Positions 15,429-34,245 of a DNA stretch of 42,549 bases are shown one piece after another. A program made the position numbers and the translations under genes. Under the pieces are notes generated by a model that made no database searches, was not told the origin of the DNA, and saw nothing but the letters and a program-made list of their open reading frames with translations. The stretch comes from Eubacteriales bacterium (GTDB lineage Bacteria; Bacillota; Clostridia; Lachnospirales; Lachnospiraceae): the NCBI GenBank assembly GCA_030524585.1, contig JAUNGJ010000023.1, positions 1 through 42,549 of the forward strand, read 5' to 3'. Position 1 is the first letter of the stretch. Every line of letters starts with the position of its first letter.

Positions 15429-15950
15429 CTATAATATTTTTTCAAAAAACAGGTGTCCCCCATGTGAAATTGCCCCTCCAACATTCATATGGGAACGTGC
15501 CGTCACCTGAAACCCCAGCTTTCGATATAAAGCTACGGCGGGAGTATTCTGTTCTCCCGTATCAAGCCTGACTGCTACACAGGAATCCTCCTTCGCCATC
15601 TCCAATGCCTTCTTTACAAGCGCCGATCCAATCCCCTTTCCTGCCATACCCGGCCGTACCATTAACAGATGAATAACCCTTACTTTTTCATCGGATGCCC
15701 CGCCTGGCCAATGAATCGTTCTGTACTCGGCCGGCTGTCTTCTGTCCAGAATCATACTGCCCATTATAACGCCATTTTCTTCATAAACATACAGCCCTTT
15801 ATTCCGCAAAGCTTTCTCGGCATCACTTCTTGTAGGATAAACGCCTTCTTTGAAAACCGTATACGCACCATTTGTTCTCTCATATGTAAAATGCTCGCGA
15901 TATCCTTCTTCTATACTGTCTAAGTCCGAAACCACCGCCTGTCTAATCAT
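15429..15950 (-). CDS. GNAT family N-acetyltransferase
   Basis: A 173-residue GNAT protein. The acetyl-CoA binding motif A is visible as VRPGMAGKGIGSALV near residue 95-110, followed by NTPAVALYRKLGF, the common motif B region. The substrate is unknown. Its ATG overlaps the cbiJ stop region by 8 bases, so it is translated from the cobalamin message. The S66 peptidase follows directly. The overlap suggests the pair is expressed with the pathway even though neither gene has an obvious corrin role. Confidence 0.88.
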   Translation of the reverse strand: MIRQAVVSDLDSIEEGYREHFTYERTNGAYTVFKEGVYPTRSDAEKALRNKGLYVYEENGVIMGSMILDRRQPAEYRTIHWPGGASDEKVRVIHLLMVRPGMAGKGIGSALVKKALEMAKEDSCVAVRLDTGEQNTPAVALYRKLGFQVTARSHMNVGGAISHGGHLFFEKIL

Positions 15951-16752
15951 TTTCCTCTCCTTTCAGATCTTTTTCCGTCTTATTTGCAATAGAGAGCAGA
16001 TGCTCACATACTGCCTTCACGCTCATTCCCTCTTCCTTCGGCCTTCCCACGACTACCAGCGCAGCTCCTGTTTCTTTGGCCGCTTCCAGCTTCTCGAGAA
16101 ATCCGCCCGTCTTTCCAGAATCCTTGGTTACAAAGTACGCTGCCTTCGTGTGCTTTAACATTGCTACATTGATTTCCCTGGAAAAAGGGCCCTGCATCGC
16201 AATCAGGTGTTCCCCCTCAAATCCGAGCGCTACCGTTTTCTCAACGGATTCCAGGGTAGAAAGCACTCTGACATAGCACCGTTCTCTATAATCTTCCATC
16301 TCTGTGTACAAAGCAAGCTCTTTGCTTCCAGTAGAAATGAAAACATTTCCATCGACCTCTTTTAAATACTCTACGGCCTGCGCTACAGACTCCACCTCGA
16401 TTACACACATATCTCCGGCAGCCTCATTATCTTCTCTCAGACATCTAAGATACTGCACACCCGTGTTTTCACAGGCCTTTATTATATTCTCCGTCGCCAG
16501 CACTGCAAAAGGATGGGTAGCATCCACCACCAGGTCAATCTTCTTTTCTCTTAAAAAGTCCGCGATCTCTTCTTCATTCCTCCGGCCGCAGAGTATGTGA
16601 ACATTTCTGCATTCCTTTAACAGGCTTTGTCCATATTCTGTCGCCACACTGACATACGTTTCCATCGATAACGTATCTAACAGCTCTGCTATCTCCCTGC
16701 CTTCTGTTGTTCCTGCAAATACTAATATTCTATATCCATTTTCCAATCGCAA
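15943..16752 (-). CDS. cbiJ: Cobalt-precorrin-6A reductase CbiJ
   Basis: An NADH-dependent reductase of the corrin macrocycle (CobK/CbiJ family). It is 269 residues. The N-terminus ILVFAGTTEGREIAELL and the VDATHPFA segment are diagnostic; RCLRE and the VFISTGSKEL and AMQGPFS motifs follow. I place the start at a TTG (16752) because GGAGGAG lies seven bases before it and family homology begins a few codons later; it overlaps cbiG by 23 bases. The next gene overlaps its end by 8 bases. Confidence 0.92.
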   Translation of the reverse strand: MRLENGYRILVFAGTTEGREIAELLDTLSMETYVSVATEYGQSLLKECRNVHILCGRRNEEEIADFLREKKIDLVVDATHPFAVLATENIIKACENTGVQYLRCLREDNEAAGDMCVIEVESVAQAVEYLKEVDGNVFISTGSKELALYTEMEDYRERCYVRVLSTLESVEKTVALGFEGEHLIAMQGPFSREINVAMLKHTKAAYFVTKDSGKTGGFLEKLEAAKETGAALVVVGRPKEEGMSVKAVCEHLLSIANKTEKDLKGEEND

Positions 16753-17812
16753 TGGTCATCTCCTCCAGACACCGTTTTTCCTGTATCACCGTTCCTCCAT
16801 CATATGCCTTCAGGTATCGCTTTACCGCACGTTCACATACATTATCCACTCCGGTTACCTGTTCTACAAATTTGGAACTGCTGCTGATAGAACCAACCTC
16901 CTTCAGTTCTTCTGCCGAATATGTGATAAAAGGCAGATTACGTTCTTTACAGAGCTCCAGCAGCCCCGGCTCCTGAGCCTTAAGGTTAATGCTGACAACC
17001 GCCGCAATCTGCTCCCATCTAATGCTATGCTCTATTAAGGTCTCTGATATCCCTTTCATTAGCGTAGCTCTTTCTGTACCTTTTCTGCAGCCAATTCCCA
17101 CCACAATATTTTGTGGAAGAAGATACAGTACATTTTGTCCTTTTTTATCAGCGTTTTGCCCTATTCTGATTCCATATTCAAATTGCTCCAGCTCTTCATA
17201 ATTCCTGCACAGCCGCAGCTCTTCAAATTGCTGCAATCGCCCCGTCATATCACCAATCCAATTTTCACACTCTGTATCCACATAGATTCCAATATGCTTT
17301 CCTTCCAGTACTGCCGCGGAAATACATTTTGCAAGCTCCCGGTCCGTAATCACCAGATGATTCTCTCTGGCAAATACATCCACTGCAAATTTTTTCTGTA
17401 CATCCGTTGCTGTTGTAATAACTGGCAGTGCTCCTGTCCAATCAGCAATTTTTTCTGCAAGCTCTACACCTCCGCCTATATGTCCGGAAAGAAGAGGAAT
17501 CACATATTGCCCTCTCTCATCCATAGACAGTACCGCCGAATCCGTATACTTATCTTTCACCAATGGCGCAATCATACGAATCGCAATTCCAACGGCACCA
17601 ATAAAAAGAAAATCATTCTTCCCCCACTGGGAAGCAATCCATTCCCTGATATTTCCCGGCAAAGGCGTAAGCTTTTCCGCAAATCGCTCCGGCCCATATC
17701 CCTCACAAACGCATAAATCCAATTCTCTGCATAGTCGTTCGTTTAATCTGGTCCCTTCTTCTGTGAAGCTAATGATAATTAATCTTTTATTTGAATACAA
17801 AAATTTATCCAT
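16730..17812 (-). CDS. cbiG: Cobalt-precorrin-5A hydrolase CbiG
   Basis: CbiG opens the delta-lactone ring of cobalt-precorrin-5A and releases acetaldehyde, a step unique to the anaerobic route. It is about 360 residues. Marks are IIISFTEEGTRL, FLFIGAVGIAIRMIAPLVKDKYTDSAV-type text around residues 70-95, LLSGHIGGGVELA, TTATDVQKKFAVDVFA, and in the C-terminal half VVGIGCRKGT and the YSAEEL...FVEQVTGVDNV region. The ATG at 17812 is used here; an in-frame GTG seven codons upstream is the alternative. It is the first gene of the visible cobalamin cluster, divergent from sstT. Confidence 0.93.
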   Translation of the reverse strand: MDKFLYSNKRLIIISFTEEGTRLNERLCRELDLCVCEGYGPERFAEKLTPLPGNIREWIASQWGKNDFLFIGAVGIAIRMIAPLVKDKYTDSAVLSMDERGQYVIPLLSGHIGGGVELAEKIADWTGALPVITTATDVQKKFAVDVFARENHLVITDRELAKCISAAVLEGKHIGIYVDTECENWIGDMTGRLQQFEELRLCRNYEELEQFEYGIRIGQNADKKGQNVLYLLPQNIVVGIGCRKGTERATLMKGISETLIEHSIRWEQIAAVVSINLKAQEPGLLELCKERNLPFITYSAEELKEVGSISSSSKFVEQVTGVDNVCERAVKRYLKAYDGGTVIQEKRCLEEMTIAIGKWI

Positions 17813-17964
17813 ATGTACTACGCAGCCTCCCACAGTGTTTCTATCATCATATCACATTGTAGTATCTCCATGTGCATTTTTCTTGCCATTCACCGTCATT
17901 TTATGCAATAATAAGATGGTCTATGTAAATGGATTTTAAGTAAAAAGAGAGGAGAAGCGGATGT
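17813..17964. promoter_or_regulatory. Divergent intergenic region between cbiG and sstT
   Basis: These 152 bases must contain the promoters of both the minus-strand cobalamin cluster and plus-strand sstT. I do not see a B12 box or the conserved core of a cobalamin riboswitch, and the space is too short for a full one plus expression platform. On the minus strand TACAAT and TATGAT are candidate -10 elements, but no good -35 is paired with them. Confidence 0.35.
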
Positions 17965-19930: not shown

Positions 19931-20041
19931 AATATCAAGCTCCTTTCCGATATATGTTTGTCTATATTCATTATAGCAAAATATTCAGAATATTTCCATC
20001 TTCTCATTTAGAAAAACTGATAATTTAAGATAAAGAAAGAA

Positions 20042-20076
20042 AAGGAGCCTGACCTCTCAATTGCATCCTGCTCCTT
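20042..20076 (-). terminator. Terminator after the activase gene
   Basis: AAGGAGC (20042-20048) pairs with GCTCCTT (20070-20076). On the minus strand the stem is followed by TTTCTTTCTTT. It lies 8 bases beyond the stop of the activase gene and ends the iron-sulfur module. Confidence 0.75.
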
Positions 20077-20083
20077 CAAATGA

Positions 20084-20854
20084 CTATCTTCTTCTCTTTG
20101 ATTTTTCTTCTGCCAGCAGCGCTGCCCCTATCGCTCCGGCATATCTGCCGTTCTCTGTGGGCTCCACTCTCTTTCCTAGCTTCTGAGACAAAATATCCGT
20201 AAAATAGGTACTGCTGCTGATTCCTCCGGTCAGAATCACTTTATCCGTTATATTCTTTCTTCCGGCTAACTGCGCTACCTTGGCCGCAACAGAATCCACC
20301 ACACCTGCAGCAATATCTTCCCGCTTCTTGCCCTCTCCGATATAATTGATAACCTCTGACTCAGCAAATACCGTACAGAGAGAACTGATCGAGAGTACTT
20401 CCCCGCTTCTTGCCATATCAAACAGCTCCTGCAGAGTCACACCCAGACGATTCGCCATAATCTCAAGGAATTTTCCGGTTCCGGCAGAGCATTTATCATT
20501 CATCAGGAAGTCCTGTACCATTCCTCCGGCAACCAGAATCACTTTTGTATCCTGTCCTCCCACATCAATGATGGTGCAGTCATCCCCGGCCATCTCTCTT
20601 CCGCCTCTTGCATGACAGGTAATCTCTGTGATCACATAATCTGCAAAATCTACTGCAATTCTTCCATAACCAGTGGCAACCACTTTTACCTCATCCGATG
20701 TAACATCTATGCCTTCCTCCAACAATCTGTCCTTGATCGTTATGGTCGTCTCTTTGCTGCTCCAGCCCGTGGGCAGTACAAACATAAGCTCCTTATCACC
20801 TCTTACAGCTGTCTTAGAAGCTGTAGAGCCAATATCTATTCCTACGTAATACAT
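20084..20854 (-). CDS. Acyl-CoA dehydratase activase / double-cubane protein reductase (BadF/HgdC family)
   Basis: An ATP-driven one-electron donor of the ASKHA fold. These dimers hold a [4Fe-4S] cluster with two cysteines per subunit and inject a low-potential electron into dehydratases or double-cubane proteins. The 256 residues include the phosphate loop GIDIGSTASKTAV (4-16), DVGGQDTK near 97-104, and C122 (DKCSAGTGKFLE) and C160 (SLCTVFAESEVI), matching the cluster ligands of HgdC-type activases. It closes the desulfurase, double-cubane, DUF3343 series and is followed by a terminator. With only one large subunit gene upstream, the double-cubane reductase role is more likely than a dehydratase activase. 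Confidence 0.9.
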   Translation of the reverse strand: MYYVGIDIGSTASKTAVRGDKELMFVLPTGWSSKETTITIKDRLLEEGIDVTSDEVKVVATGYGRIAVDFADYVITEITCHARGGREMAGDDCTIIDVGGQDTKVILVAGGMVQDFLMNDKCSAGTGKFLEIMANRLGVTLQELFDMARSGEVLSISSLCTVFAESEVINYIGEGKKREDIAAGVVDSVAAKVAQLAGRKNITDKVILTGGISSSTYFTDILSQKLGKRVEPTENGRYAGAIGAALLAEEKSKRRR

Positions 20855-20931
20855 CGTTTCTTTTTTCTCCCTTTTTATCTATTCCTGCGCCAATCATAAG
20901 CTGCTTTCTATCCTGGGCTCATCATGATACC

Positions 20932-21192
20932 CTAGCAGTATCGGTCTCTGTGTGGATTAAAGTCCTTCTCCACTTCTGCAATTTTTAAAATCTCGATATC
21001 TTTTTGATCTGCAATGTCCTGAATCTTTTCCAGATCCTCTTTTTCCACCATCAATGACACGCCGCAGCATTTACTCGCACTTCTGGGGGTAGGAGCAATC
21101 GCTGCCCGAACCCCCAGCTTTTTTAACTCTCGATATAACCGCATTGCGTTATCATGATTAGGAAATAAAACATAATGCTGAATATCCGGCAT
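20932..21192 (-). CDS. DUF3343 small protein, putative S/Se carrier
   Basis: An 86-residue protein matching the DUF3343 family by its text LFPNHDNAMRLYRELK and the central SKCCGVSLMV with adjacent cysteines. Relatives are annotated as putative sulfur or selenium carriers because they often sit near selenium genes and cysteine desulfurases. The role here is inferred from the neighbours: it lies between the double-cubane protein and its activase, with a NifS-type desulfurase upstream. A GTGGGGA site precedes the ATG. Confidence 0.82.
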   Translation of the reverse strand: MPDIQHYVLFPNHDNAMRLYRELKKLGVRAAIAPTPRSASKCCGVSLMVEKEDLEKIQDIADQKDIEILKIAEVEKDFNPHRDRYC

Positions 21193-21257
21193 CGTCTTTT
21201 CCCCACCTGATTACTATATACCTTATCAAACACTAACAGTTCACGAAATATGCTGTC

Positions 21258-22532
21258 TTAGTTGTTCAGCATCTCCACAAATGCACTGACTCTGGTGCGA
21301 AGCTGCTGTGCATCACTGTCTGTATAATCCGTTTCAATTCCAAGTACCGGGATTCCTGCTTCATTCAATGCACGCTCTACGAAATATCCCTCTGTGTCAT
21401 ACAGATTACAGAACTTCAGGTTCACATCAATAATACCATCAACCTTATATTCCTTCGCCAGACGGAGTATATCATCAATCCTTGCATGGTTCGGTGTAAA
21501 GCATGCACAGTTAATTCCCATGTAGCGCTCTGCCAGTGCGTCAATCTGTTCTTCAACCGTTTCTCCTGACTCATCTACATATCTCTCAAAGTAACGTGTT
21601 CCGGTACACATTTCTTCACAGACAACCACTGCTCCGCTGGTCTCAACAATATTATGAAGCTTCCAGTTCGGAATAGCAAGTGGTGTTCCAGTCAGCATAA
21701 TTCTCTTAGTTCCTGCCGGCACTACGCTGACACCATCCTTAACTCTCTGCTCCAACTCGTCACACAGCTTATTGGTCATCTGTGCAAATCTTGCAGGATC
21801 ATCATAGAAAGCAATCTGGGAGATTACCAAAGCATCTGTACCGCTGATCGGCACATTCTCACTCTTCCGGCACTCATACAGTCTTGCCAGAGCTTTTCTC
21901 TTATTATTGATCAGCTTAATACTCTCTGCCAGCTTCTCTGCCGTCACCTTATTGCCGGTAAATTCTTCCACGACTTCCTTCAGAGTCACAATCTCTTCTG
22001 CCCATGCCTTTACATCTTTTGCACGCTTCATCTGCGGAAGATCCATAACATGAACCGGGACATCCTCAGAAAGAATCTCCCATGCTTTCTTCTTGCCATC
22101 ACAGGTAGTCTCTCCTATGTACATATCCGCAATCCTGAAGAATGGGCAGGTACGATCCAGCCTTGCTCCCACAGAAGCCTTGATCAGAGGACAGGTATTG
22201 GTCGGAAGGACCTTCTCTCCTCCCGGAACCCAGAACTGTGAGCCTCCGCAAAGTCCGGTCGCAATTGCATCTGCTGCAAAGATGATCTCATCCGGTACAT
22301 AGACACAGAAGGTTCCAAATACCTTTCCGCCTTTCTCCTGATGTGCGATCAGCTCTGAAGGACGGATACCGTGAATATCTGCAACTACCATATCATAATA
22401 GTCCATGCCATCCGGACGGTTCTCCTGTGATAAAAACACGTCTCCCACTGCCTGTGGAAGCACCTCGCACAGTTGATCATGCAGCTCCAGATTCATCCCC
22501 AGTTCTTCCCACATTTTACGATTATCAGCCAT
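21258..22532 (-). CDS. Double-cubane cluster protein (2-hydroxyacyl-CoA dehydratase subunit family)
   Basis: A 424-residue protein of the HgdB/FldC-like superfamily. Cysteine-containing segments are FGTFCVYVPDEII, NTCPLIKASVG, RTCPFFRIADM, GETTCDGKKKAW, EEMCTGTRYF and FCNLYD. GETTCDGKKK and the solitary subunit, with no partner gene of the same family alongside, match the double-cubane cluster proteins rather than two-subunit acyl-CoA dehydratases. The characterised Carboxydothermus member holds an [8Fe-9S] cluster and, with its activase, reduces small substrates such as acetylene and hydrazine. The physiological substrate is unknown. AAGGAGG precedes the ATG, and a dyad at 22575-22589 lies in its promoter region. 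Confidence 0.85.
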   Translation of the reverse strand: MADNRKMWEELGMNLELHDQLCEVLPQAVGDVFLSQENRPDGMDYYDMVVADIHGIRPSELIAHQEKGGKVFGTFCVYVPDEIIFAADAIATGLCGGSQFWVPGGEKVLPTNTCPLIKASVGARLDRTCPFFRIADMYIGETTCDGKKKAWEILSEDVPVHVMDLPQMKRAKDVKAWAEEIVTLKEVVEEFTGNKVTAEKLAESIKLINNKRKALARLYECRKSENVPISGTDALVISQIAFYDDPARFAQMTNKLCDELEQRVKDGVSVVPAGTKRIMLTGTPLAIPNWKLHNIVETSGAVVVCEEMCTGTRYFERYVDESGETVEEQIDALAERYMGINCACFTPNHARIDDILRLAKEYKVDGIIDVNLKFCNLYDTEGYFVERALNEAGIPVLGIETDYTDSDAQQLRTRVSAFVEMLNN

Positions 22533-22574
22533 ATCTAATTTCCTCCTTTTTCGATATATTTTCCCGATAAATCA

Positions 22575-22589
22575 TTACCATAATGGTAA
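22575..22589. promoter_or_regulatory. Perfect dyad, putative operator upstream of the double-cubane gene
   Basis: TTACCAT-A-ATGGTAA, two 7-base arms around one base, lies 43 bases before the ATG at 22532. Read on the minus strand, TTGAAA, a 17-base spacer and CATTAT form a plausible sigma-A promoter whose -10 falls inside the dyad, as expected for a repressor site. The binding protein is not identified. Confidence 0.55.
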
Positions 22590-22642
22590 CATTTTTATCA
22601 CTTTTCAACAATCAAATTGGAGGTTTTTCCTATATGTCTCAT

Positions 22643-23794
22643 CTATGTATAACGTAATTTATAGATGCTGTCTATGCATCTGTCAATCTCTTCTTCTGTG
22701 TTTACGGCACTAAATGCAAATCTCACTGTTCCTCTCGGAAATGTCCCCAGCGATTGGTGTGCAAGCGGCGCACAGTGAAGTCCGACTCTGGTCATAATTC
22801 CGGCACGCTGCTCTAATTCAAAAGCGGCAACCGCATTATCTGCCTCTTGAAAATCCAGCGAAATTACAGCCACTCTGTTTTCACAGGTCGGATTTCCCAC
22901 GATGCGCACTTTGGGGATCTCCTGTACCTTTCTAAGGAAATATTCCGTAAGCTCCATCTTCCGTCTGTGAATCTTCTGGATTCCCGTCTCTTCCAGATAA
23001 TTTAACGCTGCATGAAGTCCTATGATTCCCGGAAGATTCATAGTTCCGCTCTCATATTTGTCCGGAAGATTCTCCGGCATAAGAAGTGAGTCCGATTGAC
23101 TCCCGGTGCCTCCTGCAATTAATGGCGTCATCTGTTTATCCAATCTCTCCGATATCAGAAATCCTCCGATTCCCTGCGGTCCTAAAAGTCCCTTATGCCC
23201 TGTAAATGCCAGAAAATCAATCCCGCATTTCTCCACATCAATATCCAGAGTTCCCGCGGTCTGAGCTGAATCCACTCCGAATATCAGATTATGTTTCTTA
23301 CAGATATGCCCGATTGTTTCAATTGGCAGTACGGTTCCGCACACATTGGATGCATGAGTGATCAGCACTGCTTTAGTACGCTCATTAATACAGGCTTCCA
23401 GATCAGACACATCCAGATTGCCAGCTCTGTCTACCGGTGCAATATCATAAGAAACGCCCTGCCTTATCATCTGCTCAAGAGGACGCATCACCGCGTTATG
23501 TTCCAGACCGGATACAACAATGTGATCTCCCGCTCTCAGGAATCCTTTCAGAAAATAATTCAGGGAATAGGTTACACTCGGTGTAAACACTACTCCCCTG
23601 GAATTCCTGGCATGAAAAAGCTGCGCCAGCTGTTCTCTGGTATCCAGCACGACGCCCTCAATCTCATATGCGCCCTCGTAATTGCCGCGATTAATATTAA
23701 ACGCGCCATTCTCAAGCAGCTCTGCCATGGCCATAGACACTCCCGGTGCCTTTGGCCATGATGTACTGCCATTGTCAAAATAAATCTTATCCAT
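22643..23794 (-). CDS. Class V aminotransferase / cysteine desulfurase family protein (NifS/IscS-like)
   Basis: A 383-residue PLP enzyme that most likely removes sulfur (or selenium) from cysteine (or selenocysteine). IYFDNGSTSWPKAP at the start matches the subgroup often found beside DUF3343 and selenium genes. D175 (GVDSAQTAG) and the PLP lysine K201 (TGHKGLLGPQG) are in place, and the mobile-loop cysteine C341 in RVGLHCAPLAHQ could carry the persulfide. The start at 23794 lies one base after the glyS stop, so it is probably translationally coupled. It is followed, after 110 bases with a likely promoter, by the double-cubane gene. Confidence 0.88.
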   Translation of the reverse strand: MDKIYFDNGSTSWPKAPGVSMAMAELLENGAFNINRGNYEGAYEIEGVVLDTREQLAQLFHARNSRGVVFTPSVTYSLNYFLKGFLRAGDHIVVSGLEHNAVMRPLEQMIRQGVSYDIAPVDRAGNLDVSDLEACINERTKAVLITHASNVCGTVLPIETIGHICKKHNLIFGVDSAQTAGTLDIDVEKCGIDFLAFTGHKGLLGPQGIGGFLISERLDKQMTPLIAGGTGSQSDSLLMPENLPDKYESGTMNLPGIIGLHAALNYLEETGIQKIHRRKMELTEYFLRKVQEIPKVRIVGNPTCENRVAVISLDFQEADNAVAAFELEQRAGIMTRVGLHCAPLAHQSLGTFPRGTVRFAFSAVNTEEEIDRCIDSIYKLRYT

Positions 23795-23795
23795 C

Positions 23796-25196
23796 TTACC
23801 ACTCAAACTTCTTCTCAAAGTATGCATTCAGATCTTCAATCTTAACCCGCTCCTGCTCCATGGTGTCTCTGTCACGAACGGTTACTGCTCCATCTTCCTC
23901 TGAGTCAAAATCATAAGTCACACAGAACGGTGTGCCGATCTCGTCCTGACGGCGGTAACGCTTACCGATATTGCCGCGTTCATCATACTCACAGTTATAT
24001 TTCTTAGCAAGCTGTGCATAAACCTTCTGCGCTCCCTCACTAAGCTTCTTGGAAAGTGGAAGAACACCAATCTTAACCGGTGCAAGTGCCGGATGGAAAT
24101 GAAGCACGGTTCTCATATCCGGCTTCTCCTCCGTTCCAATATTCTCCTCATCATATGCGCTGCATAGGAAAGCCAGCACCATACGGTCCGCTCCCAGTGA
24201 CGGCTCGATAACATACGGAACGTACTTTGTCTTCTTCTCGTCGTCAAAATAAGTAAGATCCTGCTTGGATACCTCTATATGCTGGGACAGATCGTAGTCG
24301 GTACGGTCTGCAATACCCCACAGCTCGCCCCATCCGAATGGGAACAGGAACTCGATATCCGTCGTAGCCTTGCTGTAGAAAGACAGTTCCTCCTTATCAT
24401 GGTCACGATAGCGAACCTCATCCTCTTTCAGGCCAAGTCTGCTCAGCCAATCCAGACAGAACTTCTTCCAGTAGGCAAACCACTCAAGGTCCGTATCCGG
24501 CTCACAGAAGAACTCCATCTCCATCTGCTCAAACTCTCTGGTACGGAAAGTAAAGTTACCCGGTGTGATCTCATTTCGGAAAGACTTACCAATCTGGCAG
24601 ATACCAAATGGAATCTTCTTTCTGGATGTACGCTGTACATTCTTAAAGTTTACGAAGATACCCTGTGCAGTCTCCGGGCGAAGATATACAACGTTCTTTG
24701 CATCCTCGGTTACTCCCTGAAAAGTCTTGAACATCAGATTAAATTCACGAATCTCTGTAAAATTATGCTTGCCGCAGGTCGGACAGGGAATCTCATGCTC
24801 CGCAATAAAATCCTGCATCTTCTCATGACTCCATCCGTCAATGCTGTCACCAATATCAAGTCCATGCTCATGTGCATAGTCCTCAATCAGCTTATCTGCA
24901 CGGAAACGCTCATGACATTCCTTACAATCCATCAAAGGATCACTGAAGCCGCCCAGATGTCCACTGGCAATCCATGTCTGCGGATTCATCAGAATCGCGC
25001 AGTCCACGCCTACATTATAAGGTGATTCCTGAACAAACTTCTGCCACCAGGCTTTCTTTACATTGTTCTTGAGCTCAACGCCCAGATTACCGTAATCCCA
25101 TGTATTGGCAAGACCGCCGTAAATCTCAGAACCCGGATATACGAATCCTCTTGACTTTGCCAGCGCTACAATCTTATCCATTGTCTTTTCTACCAT
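23796..25196 (-). CDS. glyS: Glycyl-tRNA synthetase, single-chain type
   Basis: Charges tRNA-Gly. It is about 466 residues, the eukaryote/archaea-like homodimeric form common in Firmicutes rather than the two-gene GlyQ/GlyS form. Class II motifs are present: [17 protein letters not shown] and [18 protein letters not shown] (motif 2), and [14 protein letters not shown] (motif 3). [14 protein letters not shown] opens the protein, and a short zinc-type CPTCGKHNF segment sits in the insertion. The ATG at 25196 follows AGAGGAT; an in-frame GTG is immediately upstream. No T-box leader fits in the 90-base gap before it. Confidence 0.95.
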
Positions 25197-34028: not shown

Positions 34029-34066
34029 CGTATTCTCGTAACACAGATTATGCTCTATTGTCATCT

Positions 34067-34223
34067 GATAGCGCTCCACTTCATCGTGACAGTACGCAGC
34101 ATATTCTGCTACATCCCAGACCAATCCTCTGGCAGAAGATTCATCTTCGGCAGTTTCCCCTTTTTCACACAGCAGTCTGCCGGACTATCACTGTATGATA
34201 CTGATGAAAACCGCGCCTCTATC
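34067..34223 (-). ncRNA. Lysine riboswitch (L-box) aptamer
   Basis: Read on the minus strand, the P1 helix is GATAGAGGCGCGG at the 5' end closing with GTGGAGCGCTATC at the 3' end. Between them are the conserved L-box blocks ATCAGTA, GGGGAAACTGCCGAAG, GGTCTGGGATG and GTACTGTCAC in the right order. Length is 157 bases. A promoter lies just upstream and a terminator downstream, with nhaC as the first gene. Lysine binding is expected to favour the terminator and shut off the transporter and zinc-ribbon genes. Confidence 0.93.
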
Positions 34224-34245
34224 AAGCTATTATTCACATAGTACA

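Follow-up and report, generated by a model that had tools for sequence, protein, structure and literature searches.

A gene module centred on a double-cubane cluster protein in a Lachnospiraceae genome and its proposed link to selenium metabolism

The gene module

The module considered here lies on a 42,549-nucleotide stretch of DNA, referred to throughout as the window (positions 1 to 42,549 of contig JAUNGJ010000023.1, assembly GCA_030524585.1), from an Eubacteriales bacterium of the family Lachnospiraceae. It encodes, in order along the minus strand, a cysteine desulfurase resembling selenocysteine lyases, a double-cubane cluster protein (DCCP), a small protein of the DUF3343 family and an ATP-dependent activase (Table 1). 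The first-pass annotation had placed these four genes here, at these positions and in one direction, and this was confirmed by the open reading frames (ORFs) and by family scores exceeding the cut-offs. The same four-gene order was found in seven of the 20 regions first fetched from the window's own family (L037, L038, L040-L043 and L046), with protein identities of 59-94%, and the arrangement is therefore not a matter of chance.

DCCPs are reductases that carry a double cubane and are driven by ATP, and their role in the cell has been described as unclear (PMC11971306); their genes have been reported as lowered under CO, with a LysR-like gene in their unit (PMC7306483), and the dicubane protein has been called provisionally linked to selenium metabolism (PMC10418091, preprint). 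DUF3343 was proposed by Lin et al. in 2015 to be a chaperone for selenium or sulfur trafficking (PMC5322559), a proposal repeated later (PMC9312934). The in vivo selenium donor of the selenophosphate synthetase SelD has been described as incompletely known (PMC13188914).

Table 1. Features of the module and its flanks, with family models and scores
Feature	Family	Coordinates	Strand	Score	Remarks
Desulfurase / selenocysteine-lyase-like pyridoxal phosphate (PLP) enzyme	TIGR01977 (am_tr_V_EF2568)	22643..23794	-	443 bits (cut-off 377)	
DCCP	NF040772	21258..22532	-	511 bits (cut-off 350)	424 aa
DUF3343 / Se_S_carrier protein	PF11823	20932..21192	-	71 bits (cut-off 25); E 4.9e-20	86 aa
ATP-dependent activase (DCCP reductase)	TIGR00241	20084..20854	-	225 bits (cut-off 125)	256 aa
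Possible rho-independent terminator		20036..20077	-		3' of activase; 8-bp stem, long loop, U-rich tail
glyS (glycine--tRNA ligase)	NF003211	23796..25199	-	699 bits	upstream neighbour

Protein families and conserved residues

The window DCCP matches the DCCP of Carboxydothermus (6ENO, 7YYL) over its full length with 51% identity. In BzdN, a benzoyl-CoA reductase subunit, the [8Fe-9S] cluster is held by C36/73/100/263/293/327 (PMC11971306). When these residues are mapped by eye, with BzdN as the source and not 6ENO's own list, the presumed ligands in the window protein are C76, C114, C144, C309, C342 (or C344, on which the printed alignment sets C293) and C375. An alignment of 173 rows, comprising 170 DCCP ORFs including that of the window, a second window copy, 6ENO and Escherichia coli YjiM, has C76, C95, C114, C144, C309, C342 and C375 in every row, C129 in 98% and C344 in 77%. 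On this alignment the large protein keeps the presumed cubane-binding cysteines, the lack of which, according to the first-pass annotation, would have refuted its reading. Its ATP-dependent activase partner, a TIGR00241 gene, lies in the same gene run and carries both of the cluster cysteines previously attributed to it, C122 and C160 being present in all 117 aligned rows; the related structures in the PDB are 1HUX, 4EHT and 7YYL_E. An assignment of the DCCP as a subunit of a CoA-dehydratase or benzoyl-CoA reductase was rejected, on scores of 127 bits for HadC (cut-off 700) and 117 bits for BzdN (cut-off 454) and the lack of a second subunit: no second HGD-type gene was found among the nine window proteins scanned, and none adjoins the DCCP in the ORF list.

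The desulfurase has conserved K212 and C352 (numbered from the ORF starting at 23827), the latter in 43 of 46 rows with gaps in the other three. We take it to belong, together with the selenocysteine lyase SclA, to the TIGR01977 or EF2568-type enzymes, presumably so since the link to EF2568 comes from the name of the model.

The DUF3343 protein is a member of the Se_S_carrier family both by its score above the gathering cut-off and by its conserved cysteine, and it ends in a cysteine, C86. A "CC pair" had been noted in it earlier; the second residue, C43, is invariant (57/57 rows) but C42 occurs in only 14 of the 57, and the pair was consequently rejected as a carrier signature of the family. 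A search by sequence for solved relatives yielded none that is convincing, the best hit, at 1e-6, being to a designed repeat protein in which no individual stretch passed, and the others scoring 0.16 or worse.

Gene neighbourhoods of the window clade

Neighbourhoods were examined in two samples, a family sample of 150 genomes from the window's own family and a phylum sample of 398 genomes. From among the matches listed, 20 regions holding DCCPs of the family and 134 holding DCCPs of the phylum were fetched, together with that of the host's second DCCP. A tree built from 170 of 173 DCCP matches, leaving out three below 450 bits, resolved a window clade of 36 sequences (support 0.86) from the other 47 long DCCPs and a remainder of 87, mostly short.

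A DUF3343 gene was detected within 5 kb by hidden Markov model in 34/36 loci of the window clade, against 4/47 of the other long DCCPs and 16/87 of the remainder (20/134 outside the clade). One further gene, missed by the ORF finder, was read by eye in L183, raising the clade to 35/36 and leaving only L124 with none. Within the clade DUF3343 lies 3' of the DCCP gene and shares its strand, the two being separated by -79 to 66 bases. Desulfurase genes are nearby in 24/36, 3/47 and 12/87 loci, and activase genes in 23/36, 32/47 and 66/87. Desulfurase and DUF3343 are both nearby in 24/36, 0/47 and 7/87 loci, and all four genes in 17/36, 0/47 and 7/87, respectively, so that the set seen in the window does recur elsewhere.

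In a scan of named genomes, limited to the best 80 loci and thus favouring close relatives, DUF3343 was directly downstream of DCCP in 71 of the 76 loci with room for it and, among the 48 loci with more than 4 kb on both sides, DUF3343 occurred in 46, desulfurase in 29, activase in 41, all of these in 26, and YedF in 12. These best 80 loci include Lachnospiraceae, Peptostreptococcus, Finegoldia, Anaerococcus, Fretibacterium (which we take to be Synergistota) and Coriobacteriia. Some neighbourhoods are plainly selenium clusters: L224, L226 and L233 carry SelD-YedF-DUF3343-activase-desulfurase-DCCP-DUF3343, L237 carries SelA-SelB...DCCP-DUF3343, and there are further examples in L227, L247, L266 and L270. 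Other recurrent neighbours of DCCP genes, labelled by eye from one sequence each, are an ABC ATPase group (48 loci), UroD/MtaA-like proteins (16) and a YedE-like membrane protein (11).

The tight, clade-specific pairing of DCCP with DUF3343 is also what would be expected of a dedicated maturation set of this clade, in which the desulfurase and DUF3343 provided sulfur (or selenium) for assembly or modification of the double cubane. The first-pass annotation favoured this as their chief task, but it is not the best fit, because the other DCCP groups keep the same ligands and mostly lack a DUF3343 gene nearby. Further evidence on this explanation arises below from the host genome, the distribution of selD and the gene fusions.

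The host genome and co-occurrence with selD

The host genome (2.8 Mb in 115 contigs, with a completeness of 92%) carries two DCCPs over cut-off, two DUF3343 genes, four genes of desulfurase type (E of 1e-20 or lower) and one selD over cut-off, which has an in-frame TGA; the presence of selD had been singled out earlier as a point to check. The selD contig also holds YedF, selA, selB, a LysR regulator, a TIGR01977 desulfurase, the second DUF3343 gene and tRNA-Sec, and selenocysteine machinery is therefore present in the host. In this selenium locus the desulfurase, 43% identical to that of the window, accompanies the second DUF3343 gene; the two form a paralogous counterpart of the window pair, and the earlier description of the module as self-contained was too strong. 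The host also has a match to the NifH family that exceeds the curated cut-off (G000:C98:766-1578(-), 437 bits).

Within the phylum sample DCCP was found in 117 genomes, selD in 261 and DUF3343 in 239. selD is present in 114/117 genomes with DCCP and in 147/281 without it (odds ratio 35, Fisher p 6e-22). nifH, taken as a control, shows no such association (66/93 with nifH versus 195/305 without; odds ratio 1.4, p 0.26). Between DCCP and nifH there is an association (odds ratio 3.9) and, inside the genomes with nifH, selD occurs in 49/49 with DCCP and 17/44 without. The family sample agrees, with selD in 22/23 genomes with DCCP versus 30/127 without, and there, too, a control consisting of genomes that have other HGD-superfamily matches and no true DCCP revealed no link (11/36 versus 19/91, p 0.26). 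For genomes with a window-clade DCCP, the figures are 22/23 in the phylum sample and 11/12 in the family sample. Among 14 control genomes only E. coli and M. jannaschii gave matches to DCCP and DUF3343 and, at a stricter limit, the same held for selD.

DUF3343 also tracks selD in the phylum sample (210/239 genomes with DUF3343 versus 51/159 without), and its tie to DCCP inside the genomes with selD is weak (99/114 with DCCP versus 111/147 without, p 0.03). No DUF3343 was detected in 16 of the 117 DCCP genomes, 15 of which have selD. These last figures speak against cluster assembly as the chief role of the desulfurase and DUF3343: DCCPs occur in genomes lacking a detected carrier, the link with selD, which cluster assembly does not predict, holds in these genomes as well, and the host has three further desulfurase-type genes.

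The controls bear equally on the proposal that DCCP reduces some other small molecule, such as an organic compound of sulfur, selenium or nitrogen that the cell imports, the link with selD being indirect, through lifestyle or a selenoprotein partner, and the desulfurase and DUF3343 taking up the freed chalcogen. DCCPs have been reported to act on acetylene, hydrazine and azide (PMC11971306), and type I mlp clusters, some of which include a DCCP, have been proposed to function in methyl-selenide or methyl-sulfur metabolism (PMC10418091). Moreover, our reading by eye suggests that ABC importers and UroD/MtaA-like methyltransferases stand beside a number of DCCPs. However, neither nifH nor the HGD-superfamily matches track selD, members of the window clade have carriers beside them and, in 24/36 loci, a desulfurase as well, and the module itself contains no importer. 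We consider this proposal unlikely, while giving it serious weight.

Gene fusions and cysteine signatures

Two fusions connect DUF3343 directly with other parts of the system. In L176 (4869-6167(+)) a single protein joins DUF3343 (PF11823, residues 2-64) to SelD (TIGR00476, 374 bits, from residue 97), within the cluster DCCP-DUF3343-activase-desulfurase-[DUF3343-SelD]-YedF. In L247 (9351-10505(+)), a metagenome-assembled genome of the Coriobacteriia, an activase (TIGR00241, 226 bits) has DUF3343 as its C-terminal domain (PF11823, 52 bits, residues 316-364) and is neighboured by SelA, SelB, SelD, YedF and a desulfurase. DUF3343 also forms the N-terminus of HydE in L278 (8-1369(-); TIGR03956, 318 bits) and L280 (1-1305(-); 312 bits), and PF11823 is combined with a radical SAM domain in L279 (797-1999(+)). 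The HydE fusions lie, as far as we can tell, outside selenium metabolism and suggest that DUF3343 may serve as a chalcogen carrier in assembly of the H-cluster of [FeFe]-hydrogenase.

Two cysteines outside the presumed ligand set also distinguish the proteins of the module. The C-terminal cysteine of DUF3343 is present in 76/103 distinct DCCP-linked proteins and in 1/34 others, after four proteins of at least 140 aa had been dropped from the others and none from the linked set; a minority of the linked proteins, such as the Syntrophomonadaceae type, lack it. In the DCCP, C22 is found in 36/36 sequences of the window clade, in all 80 of the best named-genome loci and in 7/47 of the other long DCCPs, and falls in a gap in 82/87 of the short ones. 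For the other long DCCPs, DUF3343 or desulfurase is nearby in 4/7 with C22 versus 3/40 without it (Fisher p 0.006). We infer that the two cysteines are a candidate donor and acceptor pair.

Some of these results count in favour of cluster assembly. C22 could be a site of transfer, HydE is the maturase of another complex Fe-S cofactor, and the activase fusion is compatible with assembly and with transfer of selenium alike. Taken together with the neighbourhood, host and selD results that tell against it, we regard cluster assembly as distinctly improbable.

Proposed function

The explanation that we prefer, and to which we assign about an even chance, is that the module constitutes a chalcogen relay serving selenium metabolism and incorporating an ATP-driven reductive step with a putative substrate. 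The desulfurase would take selenium (or sulfur) from selenocysteine or cysteine, forming a perselenide or persulfide on the catalytic C352 (long-ORF numbering). C43 of DUF3343 would accept the chalcogen, and C86 may act as a swinging arm that docks on the DCCP near the clade-specific C22. The activase would spend ATP to push low-potential electrons into the double cubane of the DCCP, which could then reduce the delivered oxidised selenium or sulfur species to selenide or sulfide, and selenide would be passed to SelD. Transfer between DCCP and DUF3343 might run in either direction, for substrate delivery or for product removal. The narrower proposal, that selenium (or sulfur) on the C-terminal cysteine of DUF3343 is the first physiological substrate of a DCCP, reduced by an ATP-driven [8Fe-9S] enzyme for selenophosphate synthesis, is possible but doubtful. 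The attraction of the relay is that the near-complete DCCP-selD link and a carrier locked to one DCCP clade bring the role of the DCCPs and the selenium donor of SelD together in one hypothesis.

Several observations weigh against such a relay. The window module does not adjoin the sel genes of its host, and selD, selA or selB was found near window-clade DCCPs in only 2/36 loci of the first sample (6 kb) and 9/48 named-genome loci (8 kb). The SelD and activase fusions are each a single occurrence, from an assembly of draft or metagenome origin. The genomes and loci are related, and the p-values given above therefore overstate their independence. Furthermore, 29 of the 239 genomes carrying DUF3343 lack selD and this, together with the HydE fusions, means that DUF3343 is not exclusively a selenium protein.

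Four genomes with DCCP are without selD. Two of them (G267 and G420, 81% and 84% complete) have selA, and selD may therefore be missing from the assembly. The other two yielded no selA match and no selD over the cut-off: G104 (96% complete) has the complete four-gene module (G104:C1, L046) and G331 (94%) has an activase-DCCP-YedF-desulfurase-DUF3343 cluster (G331:C85, L155). These two are real counter-evidence to a role in selenium metabolism alone, and use of sulfur therefore stays possible. A stricter version, that the module moves sulfur and not selenium in the window clade, and that selenium clusters elsewhere recruited the same parts, also gains from the desulfurase, whose match to NF040779, the model of the selenocysteine lyase SclA of Enterococcus faecalis (PMC13188914), reaches 371 bits and lies below the exception cut-off of 525, and from the report of no selenium-specific DUF3343 branch by Lin et al. 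(PMC5322559). It is nevertheless very unlikely, given the presence of selD in nearly all the genomes with a window-clade DCCP.

Other features of the window

In the ORF list the desulfurase begins at 23827, within glyS, whereas the ATG at 23794 abuts the glyS stop (23796) and agrees with the coordinate given in the first-pass annotation; glyS and the module are possibly co-transcribed. We do not think that glyS is part of the module. That four unrelated genes simply travel beside glyS as passengers might be read from this abutment, but co-localisation persists in shuffled order across many genera and the 20 family regions gave no match to glyS. The recurrence in shuffled order led us to reject this explanation, to which we attach almost no credence.

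The terminator that the first-pass annotation placed at the end of the module fared less well than the genes. Folding gives a stem of 8 bp followed by a U-rich tail (z -1.98; 10/200 shuffles were equally good), and a pattern scan limited to loops of at most 8 bases listed none at the 3' end of the activase gene, so that a closing terminator is plausible with modest support. Elsewhere the window contains a lysine riboswitch (34061-34229(-), 99 bits) and cobalamin genes of the CbiJ and CbiG families (15943-17833(-)).

Comparison with known systems

Links of these protein families with selenium are partly in print, and the earlier suggestion that the system is undescribed was too strong. Lin et al. 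reported a selenium group in Slackia heliotrinireducens in which activase, DUF3343, selenocysteine lyase, YedF and a 2-hydroxyglutaryl-CoA dehydratase subunit are linked with SelD, as here; in the available text, that subunit is not named as a DCCP, and neither the DCCP-DUF3343 clade, nor a cysteine signature, nor a function of the module is given (PMC5322559). Our search of the literature, which left most subscription journals outside, did not find the clade-specific DCCP-DUF3343 pairing, the cysteine signatures, the fusions or controlled selD statistics, and there was no experimental study of the module among the titles listed.

Small carriers with a cysteine on a C-terminal arm that serve a reductase are familiar from the sulfur-carrier arm of DsrC/TusE, a likeness for which we claim no homology.

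The DCCP and DCCP reductase of Carboxydothermus hydrogenoformans (6ENO; 7YYL) share homology, the cluster cysteines and the activase partner with the module. They differ in that the window clade has DUF3343 downstream, desulfurase nearby in two-thirds of its loci and C22, which is Leu in 6ENO. E. coli K-12 yjiM-yjiL-ytiA likewise comprises DCCP, activase and DUF3343 as one gene set (L036:669-2851(-)), which occurs at at least 80% coverage in 5,323/5,426 E. coli genomes; ytiA encodes a PF11823 protein, and RefSeq annotates YjiM as a double-cubane-cluster-containing anaerobic reductase beside the DUF3343 protein YtiA. The E. coli set differs from that of the window in that its DCCP lacks the N-terminal extension (35% identity to the window protein), it contains no desulfurase and its YtiA is without the C-terminal cysteine.

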